DNA of 64,000 bases from Gemmatimonadota bacterium (GTDB taxonomy: Bacteria > Latescibacterota > UBA2968 > GCA-2709665). The first letter of the stretch is position 1. The number at the start of each line of letters is the position of its first letter. A model generated the notes under the pieces. It was not told the DNA's origin. It ran no database searches and worked only from the letters and a program-made list of their open reading frames with translations. The stretch lies in assembly GCA_028877215.1 (NCBI GenBank), contig JAPPFJ010000035.1, positions 1 through 64,000 of the forward strand, in the 5' to 3' direction. The position numbers and the translations under genes were made by a program. This document shows positions 51,661-63,997 of the stretch, in pieces.

Positions 51661-53841
51661 TCAGGAGTCCTTCCCGTCCCACCCGAAACAGAAGACTCGC
51701 CCGTCAAACGTTCCCACAACCAGGCCGCGATCCACTGTGCATGGAGACGCCGTTATCGGGGAGCCGAAAGCGGCGCTGTCCAGACATCGGCCCGAAGCGG
51801 GATCCAGCACGTACAGCAAACCGTCGCACCCGCAGACGATGAGGGAACCTTCGTGCATCACCGGAGCGGCCAGAATGGACCGCACGCCCCGGCGATACGG
51901 AACCATATCCAGCAGGTCGTCTCCCGTCCGGAACCGCCAGTGCATCGCGCCGTCGTCCATACCGAAACAGAGGGCTTCACCCTCCGGGGTGGTCGCATAG
52001 ATCCGATCGTCGCGGACCAACAGTCCCGTGGGATACCTGGAGGGCAGAATCTGTCTTTCCCAGACGACCCCGCCGGAGTGCTTCTCGACGGCGATGAGAA
52101 ACGAGGCCTCGCCGGAGAAGTGGTGAAGGTCTGTCGAGCCGCCCCCGCTCACGAGAAGGTCACCCGCCAGGACCGGTCTGGCATAGGGAAATTCGACCCC
52201 CGCCTGTCGCTCCCAGACGACGTCCCCCGTCGCACGGTCCAGCGCCACAAGCCCCCGCCGCTGAACGAGAAGGAGAAGCAGGTCTCCGGAGACCTGCGGG
52301 CTTGCATAACATGCCCAGTTGTCACCGTCTTCATTCACCGAATGCCAGATCCTGCGACCCGAGGCCAGATCGAAAGCCGCGTATCCCGCCTTCTCGCCCG
52401 CGTAGACCGTTCCATCCGCGATAACCGGAGCGGAATAAATCCAGCGTTCGGGATACTCAGGCAGGTCTGCCTCCCACATTGTGGCGCCGGACCCCGCGTC
52501 CAACAGTTGTACGCGACCCGTTATGGACACCGCCGCGCAGGCGCTGCCGTCGACAGCCACACTGTTCTTTACAGCCGCATCCGTCCCGGCGTGCCAGACC
52601 ATTTCCCCGCTCGCGGCATCGAGGCAGCAGACGCCTGCCTGCACCGGCCAGCCTTCGTCGCGCAGGCTGAGAAACACGCGTTCTCCCGACGAAACCGGCG
52701 CCGCCCGGTGAATCCCGCCCGGAATCTTCCGCTCCCATCGCAGGCGGAGCGAACCACTGCCGAATCCGATGTCTCGCGGGGAAATCTCCCCGGACTTCGG
52801 TGCGGCGCCGGCGGCCTGGAGCACGCGAAGGCCAAGGGCTGCGTCGCCATCACTGAACTGCACCACGCGGTAACCCCGGGGCGACGTGTCGATTCCACCG
52901 AAGCAGACCGGCGGGGCAGCGGACACCACCATGTCGCCGTAGGAGCAAACCTTGCTTGAGTGCCAGTGTCCGTGCAGGACGAGGCGGACGTTGTACCTGC
53001 TCAATTCGCGGAGAAATGACCCCGGTGGCGGGGTATGGACGACGACCACGATTTCACGGTCCGGGGGCTGCAGCGCGAGGTCCGCCCGGAGCCACTGCGC
53101 CTTGCGCTCGAGGTCCGCCGGAGGGTAGTACGCGTCTTCATTCGGGAAAAACGCAAAATGGCGTCCGCCCCAATCCAGACTGTAATACGTTGGCCCGAGA
53201 AATGCCTCGAAGTGCAGCGTCGCGGGAAGACCGGCGAACTTCCTGCCAATCTCCGCCAATTTCGGATTGTTCGGCGTGGCTTTCAACTCAAGGAACTCAT
53301 CAATGGAAATACCGCCCATCCGCTCCTGGTTTCCGTCGTGCCCTCCGAACAGCGGAAAGACCGGGGTTGAAATCGTCCGGACGGCGTCGCGAAAGGCGGT
53401 CAACTGTTCGATCGTCCCCCAATCCGTAAGGTCCCCGCTGGCGATAATCAGATCGGGCTTCGCCTCCCGTTCGATCTGACGAAGGGCTTCCGAAAGCACG
53501 GGACCGGACGTGTGCGTATCTCCTTCCGTGACAATGTGCGTATCGGTAATCTGCGCCAGCGTGAACGAACGCCGGGAGCGTGCGGGAGACGGCGAAAGAC
53601 GGAAATCGACACCGTCTTGCGCTTCCGAAACGTCCGGCGTGGAACGATAGTACCCGTCCTGCGCGGAAAAGCCGTCCGGAACCGTGATAAACACGAACCG
53701 GTGCGTACCGGTTTCCACGTCGAGTTCGTACCGACCCTCTCCGTCCGTCTGTACTATTTGCTCACCGTTCGTAACCGAAACCCCGGTCAGGCCGTGTTCC
53801 GAATCGTCATCGATCACCCTTCCGCGAACCTGTATCGTCAC
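51661..53841 (-). CDS. Metallophosphoesterase fused to a PQQ-type beta-propeller
   Basis: About 726 residues. A short N-terminal carboxypeptidase-regulatory-like stretch (RVIDDDSEHGLTGVSV) is followed by a calcineurin-like phosphoesterase (about 80-330). Motifs: ITDTHI, ASGDLTDWG, VVHTPPPGS and LVLHGHWHS. The usual GNH[DE] motif reads GGHDGNQ, so the Asn metal ligand is Gly. The rest (about 370-720) is a PQQ-like propeller with repeated Trp-anchored blades such as ASGEMVWHAGTD and ATGDVVWERQAG. I start at GTG 53841 after AAAGGAGG; an ATG 36 bases earlier lacks such a site. Sensor-coupled phosphatase is a fair guess. Confidence 0.85.
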   Translation of the reverse strand: MTIQVRGRVIDDDSEHGLTGVSVTNGEQIVQTDGEGRYELDVETGTHRFVFITVPDGFSAQDGYYRSTPDVSEAQDGVDFRLSPSPARSRRSFTLAQITDTHIVTEGDTHTSGPVLSEALRQIEREAKPDLIIASGDLTDWGTIEQLTAFRDAVRTISTPVFPLFGGHDGNQERMGGISIDEFLELKATPNNPKLAEIGRKFAGLPATLHFEAFLGPTYYSLDWGGRHFAFFPNEDAYYPPADLERKAQWLRADLALQPPDREIVVVVHTPPPGSFLRELSRYNVRLVLHGHWHSSKVCSYGDMVVSAAPPVCFGGIDTSPRGYRVVQFSDGDAALGLRVLQAAGAAPKSGEISPRDIGFGSGSLRLRWERKIPGGIHRAAPVSSGERVFLSLRDEGWPVQAGVCCLDAASGEMVWHAGTDAAVKNSVAVDGSACAAVSITGRVQLLDAGSGATMWEADLPEYPERWIYSAPVIADGTVYAGEKAGYAAFDLASGRRIWHSVNEDGDNWACYASPQVSGDLLLLLVQRRGLVALDRATGDVVWERQAGVEFPYARPVLAGDLLVSGGGSTDLHHFSGEASFLIAVEKHSGGVVWERQILPSRYPTGLLVRDDRIYATTPEGEALCFGMDDGAMHWRFRTGDDLLDMVPYRRGVRSILAAPVMHEGSLIVCGCDGLLYVLDPASGRCLDSAAFGSPITASPCTVDRGLVVGTFDGRVFCFGWDGKDS

Positions 53842-53873
53842 CTGCCACCTCCTTTTCCGGCTCTCCCGGCACT

Positions 53874-54326
53874 TCACGCTGCTACCGGTTGCCAGATTTC
53901 AATAGGGATACCGTCGGGATCCAGAATGTAGAACGCGACCGCGGCGACGCTTCCTTCGCGGACGATTTCAGTTGGAGTGCTCATTGCGGCCGCCCCGGCC
54001 GTGGTCAGGCGTTCGTATTCGGCCGCGGCGTCTTCCACCTGCAGCGCCAGGCTGGAAGCCCCCACGTAATTGTTGCGCAATTCGCGCGAAATGGACTCCG
54101 GGTTCTGAAACTGAACCAGACCTACGACAAACCCCGTTGGCCGGTGGAGAATCATGCCCACCCGCAATCTGACGTCCTGCATTTTCATAATCGTGTCGTA
54201 AGAAGCAAGCCCGTCCCGATCGGCCACATAGGTGACTTCGAACCCGAGCAGGTCCCGATAAAACGCGAGCGACCTGTCCAGATCGCCCACCGAGTACTTG
54301 ACGTGATGGACCTTTGTAAACGCCAT
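53874..54326 (-). CDS. VOC-family (glyoxalase/dioxygenase fold) protein
   Basis: A 150-residue single-domain protein of the vicinal-oxygen-chelate superfamily. The pattern VHHVKYSVGDLDRSLAFYRD at the start and AVAFYILDPDGIPIEIWQP at the end are the paired beta-alpha-beta-beta-beta half signatures. Likely metal ligands are the His in HHVKYSV and the Glu in IEIWQP. The start at 54326 follows GGAGG. It is near an enolase-superfamily gene and a metallophosphoesterase-PQQ gene, fitting an isomerase, lyase or dioxygenase in the same catabolic run, but the reaction is not determined. Confidence 0.85.
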   Translation of the reverse strand: MAFTKVHHVKYSVGDLDRSLAFYRDLLGFEVTYVADRDGLASYDTIMKMQDVRLRVGMILHRPTGFVVGLVQFQNPESISRELRNNYVGASSLALQVEDAAAEYERLTTAGAAAMSTPTEIVREGSVAAVAFYILDPDGIPIEIWQPVAA

Positions 54327-56382: not shown

Positions 56383-57456
56383 TCAACCCAGTGCGTATCG
56401 CGTGAACCTGTCGAGAGAAGGGAGCCCTTCGTTCAGCCACATTTCGCGATTCCGGCACGCCAGGATCACGCCGAAATTCGTGATCATGTTGTTTTCGTTA
56501 TTGCGCGGTCGCTGGCAAAGACCGCCCGGATTGTGTTCATCCATGAGAACTTCCCGCATTTCCCGCAGCGTGAGCGGTGTCTCTCCGCCTCCGAATCTCC
56601 CGTAAAGGTGAGCGACCCGGTTCAGCGAATTCTGAAAATACCGCGTACTGATGAACTCGGGATCCCACTTCCAGCCCACGGCCTGCATTTCTTCGCTGAA
56701 GTAGTGGTTCGTGGAAAATACGACCCCGTGCTCCGGACCCCGCACGCCATTCATGTCGCAGGCGTTTTCCGTAGCGGCCGCGTTTCCCTCGGCATCGGCC
56801 AGCACGATGTTGATGCCCTTGCCGGTCAGTCTGGTCTGCCTAAGGAAATCGACCGACTCCTTCACGTTCGCGCACCGTTGCAATACGAGGCGGGGGGCGA
56901 TGTGCTGGGGCACGCCGGATCCGTCCTGCCCTTTCATCGTGGGATGTCCGGAGTTCGTCCCCATGCATAACCCCGCCTCGTTCACGCCGCACTCGGACCA
57001 CACCGTCCCGATCTGGTTGATGCACAGAACGTCGTACCCCGCCTCCGATCGTATCGTCAGGATCGTCAATCCCCCAAGGCGATCAGAATCGGGTCGAAAT
57101 CTCCCGTCGTCGGTTTTGCCGAGAATGGGCCCCACGTCGCTGGCGGCAAATGCCACGCTGCTGCAGCCAACGTCGTCGGCCATCGCGGGGGCGACTGCGT
57201 TGTAGGTATTCTTGTAGAACGCTTCCTCGTCGGATATCTCCGCACCTCTCGCGATGCCGCGAATCTCTTCAATGATTTCCGGAAACGCCTTCTGAAGGTG
57301 TCCGCGCATCGCCTCCATCAGGGCGGCCTGTCGAGTCCGCACTTCCCTGATCCCGGAGAAACGGGCGAGACTACCCCGTATCTCCTCCCTGAACCGGCGG
57401 CCGATCTGTTCCCCGCGCTGAAAAGGAGATCCCTTCACCTCGAATTCAGGAATCAT
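56383..57456 (-). CDS. C45-family peptidase (acyl-CoA:6-aminopenicillanate-acyltransferase-like)
   Basis: A 357-residue Ntn hydrolase. The signature VKGSPFQRGEQIGRRF is at the N-terminus. The catalytic nucleophile is the Cys in MADDVGCSSVAF at about residue 98, which becomes N-terminal after self-cleavage. The segment CGVNEAGLCMGTN fits the fold. Family members hydrolyse or acylate amides and amino acids. The start at 57456 overlaps the preceding gene by 11 bases, a tight coupling. A long frame upstream is only a shadow of the neighbouring gene. A fragment with the same N-terminal signature lies at 23525-23665. Confidence 0.87.
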   Translation of the reverse strand: MIPEFEVKGSPFQRGEQIGRRFREEIRGSLARFSGIREVRTRQAALMEAMRGHLQKAFPEIIEEIRGIARGAEISDEEAFYKNTYNAVAPAMADDVGCSSVAFAASDVGPILGKTDDGRFRPDSDRLGGLTILTIRSEAGYDVLCINQIGTVWSECGVNEAGLCMGTNSGHPTMKGQDGSGVPQHIAPRLVLQRCANVKESVDFLRQTRLTGKGINIVLADAEGNAAATENACDMNGVRGPEHGVVFSTNHYFSEEMQAVGWKWDPEFISTRYFQNSLNRVAHLYGRFGGGETPLTLREMREVLMDEHNPGGLCQRPRNNENNMITNFGVILACRNREMWLNEGLPSLDRFTRYALG

Positions 57457-59110
57457 CGTCTGCCCCCGTGTCTGCGCGGGTCGTTCTCCCGGGCAGGTCC
57501 GCCGCTTCCCGGATCCTGTGCGCATTCTCAAACAGGCGCCGGAATCGTCGGACCGTCTTCTCCCGGCCCTCGGCGTCGCGGACCTCCACGAAGAGCGGGC
57601 CGCGTGTGATCTGGTGCGTGGACCACGCCCACAGGAAACCTGCAAAGGAAATCCGGCTGCCGAACAGTTCCCTAATTTCGTGATGATTGGAAAGGAGGCC
57701 CGAATCGGGATCCGTTTCCACCTGGTGGATGTGGTATCCCAGGATTCGCCTACCGAGTCTGGCGTACCAGTCGCCGAGCGGCTGCAGATTGTCCAGATCG
57801 CCCCCGTTGTTCCGCGCATGGCCCACGTCCAGCAACGCGCCCACCCTTGCTCCGGGCAAGTCAGCCACCTCCGCTGCTACCGCGTCGATCCACCTCAGGT
57901 ACTCCTCGATCCTCGTGGCGAATTCCCGATCCGGCGAGTCCGCGGGCGTATTGTCGGGATTGTGGATATTCTCGATCGCGATCCCCACCCCCTCGCGGAC
58001 CGCTTGCCTGAACAGGCTTTCGAATGTCCTGGCGAAGGTGAAAAAACATCCTGTCGCTTCCATTCGATGCTCCCGAACGCGCTCCATTTCGCGGGCGGTC
58101 GCCCGGGGCACGTGGACCGTAAGGCTGTCCGCGCCCGCTTCCATCGCGCAATCCAGGTGCGCCCGGACTGCATCCACACCGTCGACGCGTCGGGCCCCCG
58201 AATTCCACCGCAGGTCGGGCAGATGATAAGACAGATAGAGCGGACCCTGATCCCGGAGGTCGCAAAGCGCCGTGGAAAGCGCCTTCCGGGAAAAATCGAG
58301 GTCCGCGGGCCGGATTTCGAGGCAGGACAGGCCGGAACCGCAGGTCTTCCGGGCTGCCATTACCGGGTCGCCCTGTATCGACCAGCCCACAGGCTGCATG
58401 CCGTTCGGGAGGTCCGCCGGCAGCAGACGGATCGCCGGCGACCAGGGGATGAACGTCTCCGTCCATGCCCCGTCCTGGCCGCTCTCGAAGAGACTGATTC
58501 CGGGAAGATCGCCGATGGCCTTGTCCGGATCCAGTCCGCGGACCACGGCCTCGACAAAGCCGTTTTCGCGCCGGGTCCGGTGAAAGTGGCTGTGTCCCGC
58601 AACGAGAAGCTCGACGCCGTTTTCACGGAGCCAGCGCGTCAGCCACGCCCGGCCCTCTCCGTCCATCCTGTCCAGCGGATAGTGAGTGATGACCATCCGC
58701 CGCTCCGCATGATTGGACCCGAGGCTCCGGTCCAGCCACGAGCGCTCGTCGTCAAGAAGGGTCCCGGTCGACGTATCGGGCAGGAGAACCTGCAGGTCGC
58801 CGAACAGGGCCACCCGGCGACCGGGGGCCGCCAGAGTCTCGAACACCGACATCGCGTGCCGGCCCCGCCGTTCAGCGTTACCCGGGGTGAAGAGCACCGG
58901 GACTTCCACCCGATCCAGCGCTTCCAGGCAGCGCACGGCCGAAACCGCCGTTGAAAAGGTCGTGACGTCTCCGGCCACGGCCAGAAAATCAGGTCTCTCC
59001 AGGTTTACGCGGTCGACGGCCCACTGAAGCGCCTGGTGTGCCGCCGTATCCGGGTTGTCCGAAAGATGGAGGTCGGTCAGCAGTATAAAGCGATGGACGC
59101 TTGCCGTCAT
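57446..59110 (-). CDS. Metallophosphoesterase fused to xylose-isomerase-like TIM barrel
   Basis: 554 residues. Residues about 1-255 are calcineurin-like phosphoesterase: LTDLHLSDN, AVAGDVTTF, ITHYPLDR and VAGHSHFH. The GNH[DE] motif is changed to PGNAER, so the usual His is missing. From about 265 to 530 there is an AP-endonuclease-2-like TIM barrel with metal-ligand candidates in GVGIAIENIHNPD, GALLDVGHARN and ILGYHIHQVE. I do not know of this combination as an established family. The stop overlaps the C45 start. The enzyme pair may dephosphorylate and isomerise one substrate, which is inference. Confidence 0.85.
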   Translation of the reverse strand: MTASVHRFILLTDLHLSDNPDTAAHQALQWAVDRVNLERPDFLAVAGDVTTFSTAVSAVRCLEALDRVEVPVLFTPGNAERRGRHAMSVFETLAAPGRRVALFGDLQVLLPDTSTGTLLDDERSWLDRSLGSNHAERRMVITHYPLDRMDGEGRAWLTRWLRENGVELLVAGHSHFHRTRRENGFVEAVVRGLDPDKAIGDLPGISLFESGQDGAWTETFIPWSPAIRLLPADLPNGMQPVGWSIQGDPVMAARKTCGSGLSCLEIRPADLDFSRKALSTALCDLRDQGPLYLSYHLPDLRWNSGARRVDGVDAVRAHLDCAMEAGADSLTVHVPRATAREMERVREHRMEATGCFFTFARTFESLFRQAVREGVGIAIENIHNPDNTPADSPDREFATRIEEYLRWIDAVAAEVADLPGARVGALLDVGHARNNGGDLDNLQPLGDWYARLGRRILGYHIHQVETDPDSGLLSNHHEIRELFGSRISFAGFLWAWSTHQITRGPLFVEVRDAEGREKTVRRFRRLFENAHRIREAADLPGRTTRADTGADDDS

Positions 59111-60034: not shown

Positions 60035-62167
60035 CTACGCTGGCGTCGGTTTCAAGATCTGCAGATGCTCTCGAATCAGCTTTTCGTAGATGCCGACGAA
60101 ATCCGATCGCCCGTTATGCAGATTATAGAAGTAACACATCGGGTTCGGATTGATTTCGATCACCTGGAACCCCGCCGGGGACCGAATCACATCGATTGCA
60201 AAGAACCCCAGTTCGATCACACCCGATACGCCCGCCGTTACCCGAGACAGCCCTTCCAGCGTTTCAGGTGCATCCACCCGCTTTGCGAATCCGGTTGACC
60301 CGTGCAGCGGGTTCAGGTCGCCGCACGGAGATGTATTGACTTTCTCGTATGCCAGCAGCAATTCATCCCGGGCGGCAACGATCCGATACTCCGGCCCGCT
60401 GATGTGCTCCTGAACCAGGATCAAATTGTCGAGAAAACCGCTGTGTTCGAATAGCGTCCGCAGGCGTTTCTCCAGCGCAAACCGGTCTCCCTCCAGGAAA
60501 ACACCCTGGGCAAGCGACCCCTTGTTCCGCTTTACGAGTACGGGAAAGGTGAACCGGCGTTCAACCTCCTCGATGACCGCGTCGACGGACGCATGGGTCC
60601 GATAGCGCGAAAACCGCTCGTCCGCAAATGGATTGAAGGCCACCATCGTTTCGGGAACCGGAAGCCCGGCCCCCGTAAACAGCTCGTACTGATATGCCTT
60701 GTCTTCCGCCAGGCGGGCCGCCACGTAGTCGTTGAACGGATGCCTGTTGCGCAGAAAGTAGACCGGCCCGCGTCCGGGCGGCCGGATACGGAACAGATTT
60801 CCGTCATCCGATGCCGGTTCAATCCGAAGGTCCAGGTTTGCGCAGGCTTTCGCGAGGCACGCCAGACTCTCGCGGTGCAGGTCTTCCCCGAATCCGTCCC
60901 GCTCGCATGGCAGCCCCAGCGCTTCGCGCGCCCTGCCGACGAGATGCAGGGATCCCATGATACAGACGGGATTTCCCTCCCGCAACCCCGCACGCCCCAG
61001 CGCTTCCACGATGTCCGGCGCGCAACAGGCGGAAAGCCCCGCGGGCAGGCATTGGCGGAGCTTGTCGACGGCCAGGGCTTTGGGGTGATCGGACCTCGTC
61101 AAAACCAGCTTCTCCGCCAGCGGCTGGATCGCCTCGAGTATCCCCCCGGCGTCGTGACCCGAGTTCACGCCCACCACAAACGTCCACCGCTTCGACATCC
61201 CGGCCAGATCGCCCGCGAGGGCCACTGCGCCGGAAGGGTTGTGTGCGCCATCCAGCACGATCGGGGGCGTTCGTCGCGCCGCCTCGAACCTGCCCGGCAG
61301 ATCGAGTCCGGTCAGGGCATCCACGATCCGGGCATCTGTAAGGTCCTTCCCCATAAGGTGGCGACCGACCGCGATCGCCAGCCGGGCGTTCTTCCGGAAT
61401 ACCGACCCCCGGTCCGGCATCTCCGGATGCGGGAATTCCCGCGCTGCGCAAAGCCAATCCCCGTCCGTTTCGCCGCCGACAACGCGAAGATCAACGCCCC
61501 GCTCACGGCACTCTCGACGCAATAGCGCGAGCACTTCGGGTTTCTGTGTGGCCGGGGTGAAGAGCGGCCTGCCGGCACGGGCGATTTCGAGCTTGTCCAG
61601 CGCGATCGCCTCCACCGTATCGCCCAGAATTTCGGTATGGTCGAGATCGATTTGCGTCAGGGCGGCCACGCCGGCATCCCAGGCATTGGTCGCGTCGTAC
61701 CGGCCGCCCAGGCCCACCTCGAATACGCCGATGTCGACGCCGGCATCTGCGAACATAGACGTCGCCAGCGCCGTTAACGCCTCGAACTTTGTGAAGTAAC
61801 CGTACCCCTCCGCTTCAAATCCGCGCGTTCGGTCGTAGAGGTCCGAAATCCATTGCGCCCAGTCATCCTTATCGAGGATCCGGCCGTCGATCCGGATGCG
61901 TTCGCGGATGGTATGCAGGTGGGGGGAGGAGTAGATACCGGTCCGGCGGCCGCACGTCTGCAGCAGGGCGGCCAGGACGCTCGCCACCGTCCCCTTGCCG
62001 TTGGTACCGCCCACGATGACCGACGCAAAGTCTTTCTGCGGATTTCCCGTCCGGTGCAACAAAGCCCGCATCCGGGGCAGATAGTCTTCCGGCGTACCCG
62101 CCGCCGTCCCGTCCCTTTCCCAGTCCTGCAGCGTATTCAGATAGCGTTTGCCACGGAAGTAATCCAT
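60035..62167 (-). CDS. folC: FolC-type Mur ligase fused to a C-terminal ATP-grasp ligase
   Basis: 710 residues. The first 430 or so are folylpolyglutamate/dihydrofolate synthase: P-loop VGGTNGKGTVASV, EVGLGGRYDATN and VLDGAHNPSGA match FolC rather than MurC-F. The rest is an ATP-grasp domain: PVLVKRNKGSLAQGV as the ATP lid, ILVQEHISGPEYRI, and IEINPNP as the metal-binding Glu/Asn end. The reverse order (ATP-grasp then Mur ligase) is cyanophycin synthetase; this order with a FolC half is not one I know. The start at 62167 precedes MDYFRGKRYLN, after a GGGAAAG-like site. It lies beside rpmB. One chain could add glutamate to folate and then a further amide. Confidence 0.88.
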   Translation of the reverse strand: MDYFRGKRYLNTLQDWERDGTAAGTPEDYLPRMRALLHRTGNPQKDFASVIVGGTNGKGTVASVLAALLQTCGRRTGIYSSPHLHTIRERIRIDGRILDKDDWAQWISDLYDRTRGFEAEGYGYFTKFEALTALATSMFADAGVDIGVFEVGLGGRYDATNAWDAGVAALTQIDLDHTEILGDTVEAIALDKLEIARAGRPLFTPATQKPEVLALLRRECRERGVDLRVVGGETDGDWLCAAREFPHPEMPDRGSVFRKNARLAIAVGRHLMGKDLTDARIVDALTGLDLPGRFEAARRTPPIVLDGAHNPSGAVALAGDLAGMSKRWTFVVGVNSGHDAGGILEAIQPLAEKLVLTRSDHPKALAVDKLRQCLPAGLSACCAPDIVEALGRAGLREGNPVCIMGSLHLVGRAREALGLPCERDGFGEDLHRESLACLAKACANLDLRIEPASDDGNLFRIRPPGRGPVYFLRNRHPFNDYVAARLAEDKAYQYELFTGAGLPVPETMVAFNPFADERFSRYRTHASVDAVIEEVERRFTFPVLVKRNKGSLAQGVFLEGDRFALEKRLRTLFEHSGFLDNLILVQEHISGPEYRIVAARDELLLAYEKVNTSPCGDLNPLHGSTGFAKRVDAPETLEGLSRVTAGVSGVIELGFFAIDVIRSPAGFQVIEINPNPMCYFYNLHNGRSDFVGIYEKLIREHLQILKPTPA

Positions 62168-62267: not shown

Positions 62268-62295
62268 ACCTGGAAACAAAAGGTGAGTTTTTTTC
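62268..62295. terminator. Intrinsic terminator after rpmB, possibly bidirectional
   Basis: AAACCCACCT and AGGTGAGTTT pair over 9 of 10 bases around a 9-base loop. On the minus strand it is followed by seven T residues, so it ends rpmB; on the plus strand another T run follows, but no plus-strand gene ends here. Confidence 0.75.
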
Positions 62296-62375: not shown

Positions 62376-62567
62376 TCATGCGGCTTTGTTCACAAGGCCG
62401 AGCTTTATGCACTTCGTGCAGACCTTGATCCTTCTGGTCGTTCCGTCAACCGTCGCACGCACACGTCTGAGATTTGGATTGAACCGCCGTCTCTTTTTAT
62501 TGTTGGCGTGACTGACGTGGTTGCCGACCATCGGCCCCTTCCCGCAAATGTCGCATCTTGCAGCCAT
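62376..62567 (-). CDS. rpmB: Ribosomal protein L28
   Basis: A 63-residue large-subunit ribosomal protein. It begins [20 protein letters not shown], the L28 N-terminus with a CxxC pair, and has the basic core [15 protein letters not shown] and a second CxxC in [11 protein letters not shown], so this is the zinc-ribbon form of L28. The start follows GGAGG by 9 bases. It is transcribed alone from a consensus promoter and ended by a hairpin, next to a FolC-type fusion gene. Confidence 0.97.
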
Positions 62568-62857: not shown

Positions 62858-63997
62858 TCACCGCGGATGCCGATCGGATGTACGGAATCGAATGAACCAG
62901 AGTCCGATTTCCGGAAGCGTTCCGCTGCTGAAAACCGCGCATGGCTCGTCGGGTATCAGGCTTCCGCTGGCAGGTGAGATTCCATAGAGGAAGAAAGTAT
63001 CCCTCAGTCCGTAACCTCCGAAGCCGTTCAGAACGACCGCGGACCAGCTTCGGCCGCTATCTTCTCCGCGGTACAGCCGGAGCGCGTTTCCTGCGGTTCT
63101 GGACATCCACATACGCCCGCGCTCGCGCGGATGTTCGAAGATCGCTGCGATTCCGGCGCTCCCGGTGAATACCGCCTTCCACCGGCGCAGATCGGGATCC
63201 CGCCGATAAACGATCAGCCGGATCCTCCCGTCGCCGGCTCGGCGCGTCGCGGAGACAAGCAACGCGCCGTCGGCCGCCCGCCGGATCGCCTGGGCGAAGG
63301 CCAGGTTCTGCTCGATGGGGTTGGCGTCAGCGACCACCTCCGTCACGGCTGATGCCGGGTCGCCATAGGGCACATACAGATAGTTGATCCGGTTGTAATA
63401 CGGACTGTTATATGCGTTGTTACTCACGACGAGGTGAAAACCCTCGCCGTCCGGGACGATCAATGGATACAGCCACGTCGTCCAGGGCTCCTTAGACCGC
63501 TGCTCCCGCGCCAGGACGAACGGACCGGACCATGAACCGGAATCCAGGTCGACCCAGGCGACCTGAAAGGAATAGGACCCGGGTCTCCCGATATATCCGA
63601 GTACGAGCCGATCGCCATCCATGGCCGCACCGATATAACCGGCACGATCCAGTCCGTCCGGCAGCGCGATCGGGGCGAATCCGCGCGGATCGCCGCGAAG
63701 GCGCTGATGTAGAATCCGGGGGCCGGCGTCGCGACGTGCGTGGATGAGTACGAGACGCCGTCTTGAGTCCAGCAACACCATACCCGGCTGATGGTGGAGG
63801 CCCTCCCATTCAAGGAAGGTCTCCCAGCCGTCTTCCGTACTCCGGTAGACGATCCCCCTGGCGGTATCCTGTTGCCGGCCCCATCTACCCAGCGTATAAA
63901 AGTGGTCCCCGTCGAACACGAGCTTCGGCGCGTTGTAACCCCAATAGGGGCTGACCGATGCAATGCCGCTGTCAATGCGGGTCAGCTCGAAATCCAT
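62858..63997 (-). CDS. BNR/sialidase-like beta-propeller, start near the window edge
   Basis: At least 379 residues, from an ATG three bases inside the right edge; the true start may lie outside. It looks like a sialidase/BNR-type propeller: blade-like motifs include YRSTEDGWETFLEW, VLLDSRRRLVLIHA and RLYRGEDSGRSWSAVV, the last being a classic Asp-box (SxDxGxxW). No signal peptide is seen. Glycosidase residues (an Arg triad, Tyr) cannot be placed with confidence, so it is called a propeller of unknown function. Confidence 0.7.
   Translation of the reverse strand: MDFELTRIDSGIASVSPYWGYNAPKLVFDGDHFYTLGRWGRQQDTARGIVYRSTEDGWETFLEWEGLHHQPGMVLLDSRRRLVLIHARRDAGPRILHQRLRGDPRGFAPIALPDGLDRAGYIGAAMDGDRLVLGYIGRPGSYSFQVAWVDLDSGSWSGPFVLAREQRSKEPWTTWLYPLIVPDGEGFHLVVSNNAYNSPYYNRINYLYVPYGDPASAVTEVVADANPIEQNLAFAQAIRRAADGALLVSATRRAGDGRIRLIVYRRDPDLRRWKAVFTGSAGIAAIFEHPRERGRMWMSRTAGNALRLYRGEDSGRSWSAVVLNGFGGYGLRDTFFLYGISPASGSLIPDEPCAVFSSGTLPEIGLWFIRFRTSDRHPR

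Follow-up and report, generated by a model that had tools for sequence, protein, structure and literature searches.

A reading made from the letters alone of a 64,000-nucleotide stretch of DNA (here called the window) had described, close to its right end, one chain in which intact FolC motifs are followed by an intact ATP-grasp domain. This locus raises the question of whether two ligases are indeed carried on one protein and, if so, what the second of them might add to the product of the first. The open reading frame, the profile matches and the catalytic residues confirm the arrangement, whose parts are as follows.

60035..62167, minus strand: entire fusion gene (710 aa), with FolC first and a RimK-like ATP-grasp domain second
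60917..62167, minus strand: FolC half, aa 1-417, scoring above the TIGR01499 cut-off, with solved FolC/FPGS structures as best matches
61988..62008, minus strand: FolC P-loop GTNGKGT, aa 54-60, kept in 27 orthologues save at N56 and T60
61235..61252, minus strand: FolC DGAHNP motif, aa 306-311, conserved relative to solved FolC structures, with D306, H309 and N310 invariant
60745..60916, minus strand: junction and short segment preceding the ATP-grasp domain, aa 418-474, a helix plus strands, 53% mean pairwise identity
60062..60744, minus strand: RimK-like ATP-grasp domain, aa 475-702, above the PF08443 gathering threshold, nearest to RimK, ArgX and LysX in Foldseek
62376..62567, minus strand: rpmB-like gene (bL28), 63 aa, the upstream neighbor on the same strand, named by eye from its translation and not part of the mechanism discussed below

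Translation from 62167 to 60035 gives a single unbroken frame. The ATG at 62167 was preferred as start over a GTG at 62269 because nearly all orthologues open with M(D/N)YF. The junction between the two halves is conserved over its approximately 57 residues; AlphaFold2 predicts a helix (428-444) followed by strands, and no low-complexity linker appeared here in the orthologue alignment. Modelled in full, the chain had a mean pLDDT of 84, and the ATP-grasp half modelled alone one of 88; the whole-chain pTM of 0.64 is too uncertain to place the two active sites relative to one another.

The fusion of FolC to an ATP-grasp ligase is real and fixed across the class to which this genome belongs. A single ORF encodes it in 42 out of 47 genomes of the class (this one included), over essentially the full span of the query and at 51-85% identity, and four of these genomes consist of a single contig (G007, G010, G037 and G046). 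Elsewhere in the class, the fusion is cut off at contig ends in two assemblies (G029 and G038), no FolC was detected in two others (G023 and G034), and one member of another family (G021) has a stand-alone FolC. Counted as intact among the 42 is the orthologue of G042 (contig C95, 19669-21906), in which an apparent insertion in the FolC half gives two overlapping matches within one 755-aa frame. The genome studied here is 98.6% complete with an estimated contamination of 7.4%, which is irrelevant to the fusion since the latter is conserved across genomes. As a separate observation, G005 holds an extra copy (locus L083, contig C48, 178-3054, minus strand) that breaks off in the junction and runs in frame into an antisense catalase; this is probably a chimeric contig or misassembly.

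No comparable ATP-grasp half was found in 17 genomes of the same phylum and about 500 of other phyla, where scores reached at most 41-46 bits; class members scored 407-498 bits. A scan of 84,980 species by pattern, which is sensitive to fairly close relatives only, returned 15 loci, all of them in metagenome-assembled genomes labelled Latescibacterota/Latescibacteria or Gemmatimonadota/Gemmatimonadetes; several of these are contigs identical to those of class genomes. When 44 FolCs were placed in a maximum-likelihood tree, all fused ones grouped in one clade (100/100), with a single change of state. The stem branch of this clade is long (1.1 changes per column), and the specificity of the fused FolC itself may therefore have shifted. 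Among 27 orthologues, mean pairwise identity is 57.5% for the FolC half and 60% for the ATP-grasp half, and the identities of the two halves are correlated across orthologue pairs (r=0.93); for either half, dN/dS between members of the genus lies at 0.14-0.25. Judged by sequence, the two halves thus appear to be functional and under similar purifying selection. Since its catalytic residues are invariant, its identities keep in step with those of FolC and its dN/dS is low, the ATP-grasp half does not look like a decaying or passenger domain.

The identity of the N-terminal half is well defined. It matches the NCBIfam folC model TIGR01499 with 283 bits (cut-off 162.65) over aa 30-415, covering positions 1-398 of the 400 in the model, and both Mur_ligase_M and Mur_ligase_C score above the Pfam gathering threshold. 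FolC and FPGS enzymes are its closest solved structures both by sequence and by predicted fold. E150, H177, K192 and R293 are invariant in the 27 orthologues, as are the three residues of the DGAHNP motif listed above; the exceptions are N56, T60 and H83, each substituted once. From these family matches, the half is predicted to be a dihydrofolate synthase/folylpolyglutamate synthase; no sequence motif tells monofunctional from bifunctional FolC (PMC1971073). The resemblance to FolC extends over the whole N-terminal half and all of its motifs, whereas known FolC proteins stand alone, and none of the matched models or solved structures has a C-terminal ATP-grasp domain.

The C-terminal half is more distant from its relatives. 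PF08443 (RimK) matches aa 524-677 with 30.7-33.5 bits (gathering threshold 21). The rimK_fam model, TIGR00768, covers aa 478-676 of this protein. Each of the 21 members tested matches it, and no other NCBIfam model gave a lower E-value; yet the score of about 56-58 bits lies well below the cut-off of 143.4. The models for MptN and CofF matched 10 and 6 of the 21 members, respectively, and weakly (best E-values 5.8e-5 and 0.0024); in this HMM comparison, neither was the best family match. The top Foldseek match is E. coli RimK, and cyanophycin synthetase, Ddl and bifunctional glutathione synthetase follow after RimK, ArgX and LysX. The fold and the catalytic residues are those of the RimK family (RimK, MptN and CofF, also LysX/ArgX): the ATP-grasp lysines K490 and K546 and the Mg-binding residues E593, D659, E671 and N673 are invariant in the 27 orthologues. 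In contrast to that family, the N-terminal subdomain is shortened and joined to FolC, and the NLHRGG loop of RimK is kept only in part. Because the domain scores below the rimK_fam cut-off and shares no more than about 20% of its residues with RimK, homology does not tell which amino acid and which acceptor it uses. A genome-wide search gave no better RimK match elsewhere in the genome.

We asked which pathway the FolC half serves. A check proposed with the sequence-only reading was whether the genome holds another folC; the genome-wide search found none, the only second FolC-like match being a weak one on contig C5 (aa 223-380, 28% identity, E 6.9e-5). Dihydropteroate synthase (folP) and HPPK (folK) are present in the genome, and the fusion carries the sole FolC of a folate-making organism. 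Just right of the window, 2-5 kb away and on the opposite strand, lie rimO, folA (dihydrofolate reductase) and thyA (contig C34, approximately 64117-67039); in five more genomes, which represent two families of the order, the fusion again has rimO and thyA as neighbors, and in three of them folA too. The F420 marker CofE and the tetrahydromethanopterin marker Mch (methenyl-H4MPT cyclohydrolase) are both absent from the genome, which makes F420 and H4MPT unlikely substrates. Because the FolC is the only one, folP and folK are present, rimO, folA and thyA are nearby and the F420/H4MPT markers are missing, the FolC half very probably serves folate.

Other neighbors were noted in passing. In family f4 (locus L045, 4932-5981, and relatives), the upstream neighbor is moaA (GTP 3',8-cyclase) in place of folate genes; it ends some 19 bp before the fusion gene, which suggests an operon with molybdopterin synthesis and gives no support to the second activity. 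Between rpmB and rimO, a protein of about 379 aa (62858-63997, minus strand) resembles by eye the beta-propeller/sialidase type and matched nothing in Pfam or NCBIfam under the thresholds applied. On the other side, a 554-aa protein (57446-59110, minus strand), found in at least two genomes of the same genus, is another unusual fusion: it has a calcineurin-like phosphoesterase at aa 7-175 and a TIM barrel of the xylose-isomerase type at aa 284-521, each scoring above its Pfam gathering threshold. In a 738-aa protein (51661-53877, minus strand), a BamB/PQQ-type beta-propeller is joined to a calcineurin-like phosphoesterase that comes with its N-terminal domain.

How new is this protein? The sequence-only reading knew of no established family with this domain order, and as regards a common annotated family this holds: none of the Pfam and NCBIfam models searched spans both halves, none of the genomes searched outside the class has the fusion, and a literature search of open-licence papers found no description of a FolC-ATP-grasp fusion. 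The order is not novel in itself, however. In the MurC-Ddl of Chlamydia (NF011171), a Mur-type ligase already precedes an ATP-grasp ligase, and the fusion is needed for its Ddl activity (PMC4803751). There the two ligases belong to one pathway, that of peptidoglycan, and the second makes D-Ala-D-Ala; our protein scores 14.8 bits against the NF011171 cut-off of 1015 and gives no full-length match. The comparison first drawn was with cyanophycin synthetase (CphA1), in which, likewise, a single chain carries both an ATP-grasp ligase and a Mur-type one, acting on one growing product. The domains do stand there in the opposite order, but the comparison is not the most apt one, since the ATP-grasp half is closer to RimK, LysX and ArgX by HMM and by fold; the substrates of CphA1 are others, and at 34.6 bits, with the cut-off of the model at 877, the fusion shows no family-level similarity to it. 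The novelty lies in the combination of a FolC with a RimK-like ligase and in its having become fixed in a class.

RimK is a poly-alpha-L-glutamate synthetase that puts alpha-linked glutamates on ribosomal protein S6, and MptN and CofF add an alpha-linked glutamate to the tails of coenzymes (tetrahydrosarcinapterin and F420, respectively). In the reading that we prefer, to which we give even odds (a probability of about 0.5), the FolC half makes gamma-glutamyl folate, and another amino acid, most likely an alpha-linked L-glutamate, is attached to the tail by the RimK-like half. The FolC half, as the only dihydrofolate synthase/folylpolyglutamate synthase of the cell, would attach the gamma-linked glutamates. 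The RimK-like half would then take the folate (poly)glutamate and use ATP to turn a carboxylate of the tail into an acyl phosphate, and the activated carboxylate would form an amide bond with the amino group of a further amino acid, L-glutamate in alpha linkage being the likeliest. The tail would thereby be capped or extended, as by MptN and CofF. For the ATP-grasp half, folate as substrate, glutamate as the added residue and the alpha linkage are all proposed by analogy with these enzymes. The sequence-only reading had predicted a bifunctional peptide/amide ligase for folate or another carboxylate; as a prediction, a bifunctional amide ligase acting on folate is supported. Two precedents bear on this proposal. 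In methylotrophs, the polyglutamate chain of methylofuran is built by the RimK-type ATP-grasp ligases MyfA and MyfB, which resemble the fusion in making the polyglutamate tail of a coenzyme but are encoded by separate genes and act on methylofuran, not folate (PMC8141765). The folates of E. coli carry alpha-linked distal glutamates in their tails, according to Ferone et al. 1986 as cited in PMC1971073 and PMC11634982. A bolder form of the proposal, which we regard as doubtful, is that the two sites alternate on one tail, as in cyanophycin synthetase, and that the standard folate of the class is a new type of cofactor whose alpha/gamma-glutamyl tail is mixed or branched, or whose tail ends in another amino acid.

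Several other functions can be weighed against the same evidence. The cap placed on folate polyglutamates could be an amino acid other than glutamate (aspartate, alanine or a diamino acid, for instance). ATP-grasp ligases of the RimK-like and Ddl/CphA-like kinds accept many different amino acids, and all of these families match this domain weakly. We think this unlikely, as the top HMM and fold matches are ligases of glutamate (RimK) or of alpha-aminoadipate/glutamate (LysX/ArgX). A division of labor, in which the FolC half acts mainly as dihydrofolate synthase, adding the first glutamate, and the ATP-grasp half elongates the polyglutamate tail, would fit the presence of a single FolC in every fused genome examined, the long stem branch of that FolC and the capacity of RimK alone to polymerize glutamate (PMC8141765). 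All the FolC catalytic residues checked are nevertheless kept and give no sign that FPGS activity would have been lost, and we consider this division quite improbable. Less probable again is an ATP-grasp substrate unrelated to folate (a peptide, a ribosomal or other protein, or another cofactor), the halves being fused for stability or co-expression only. The target of RimK among ribosomal proteins, the proximity of rpmB and rimO and the moaA gene of family f4 could be read in this way; against it, the fusion is unsplit in every intact class member seen, its halves evolve in step, and folA and thyA are neighbors as well. Finally, a merger of two genes by an assembly or sequencing error, the outcome that was said at the outset to be fatal to the fusion, has next to no chance of being the explanation: the genomes are metagenome-assembled and G005 does contain a chimeric copy, but the same ORF recurs in independent assemblies across the class, single-contig genomes among them, and contig ends, undetected FolC and the stand-alone FolC of G021 cover the absences.

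Returning to the reading of a gamma-glutamyl tail modified by the RimK-like half, we know of no gene firmly assigned to the alpha-glutamate step of E. coli folates. The fusion offers a testable candidate for the type of enzyme that carries out this step, with a domain that can be compared with E. coli RimK. These results suggest that this class of uncultured bacteria has an unusual way of building or capping the glutamate tail of vitamin B9, the second reaction being a prediction. If it is true, the 'gamma tail plus alpha cap' logic of F420 and sarcinapterin would extend to bacterial folate.
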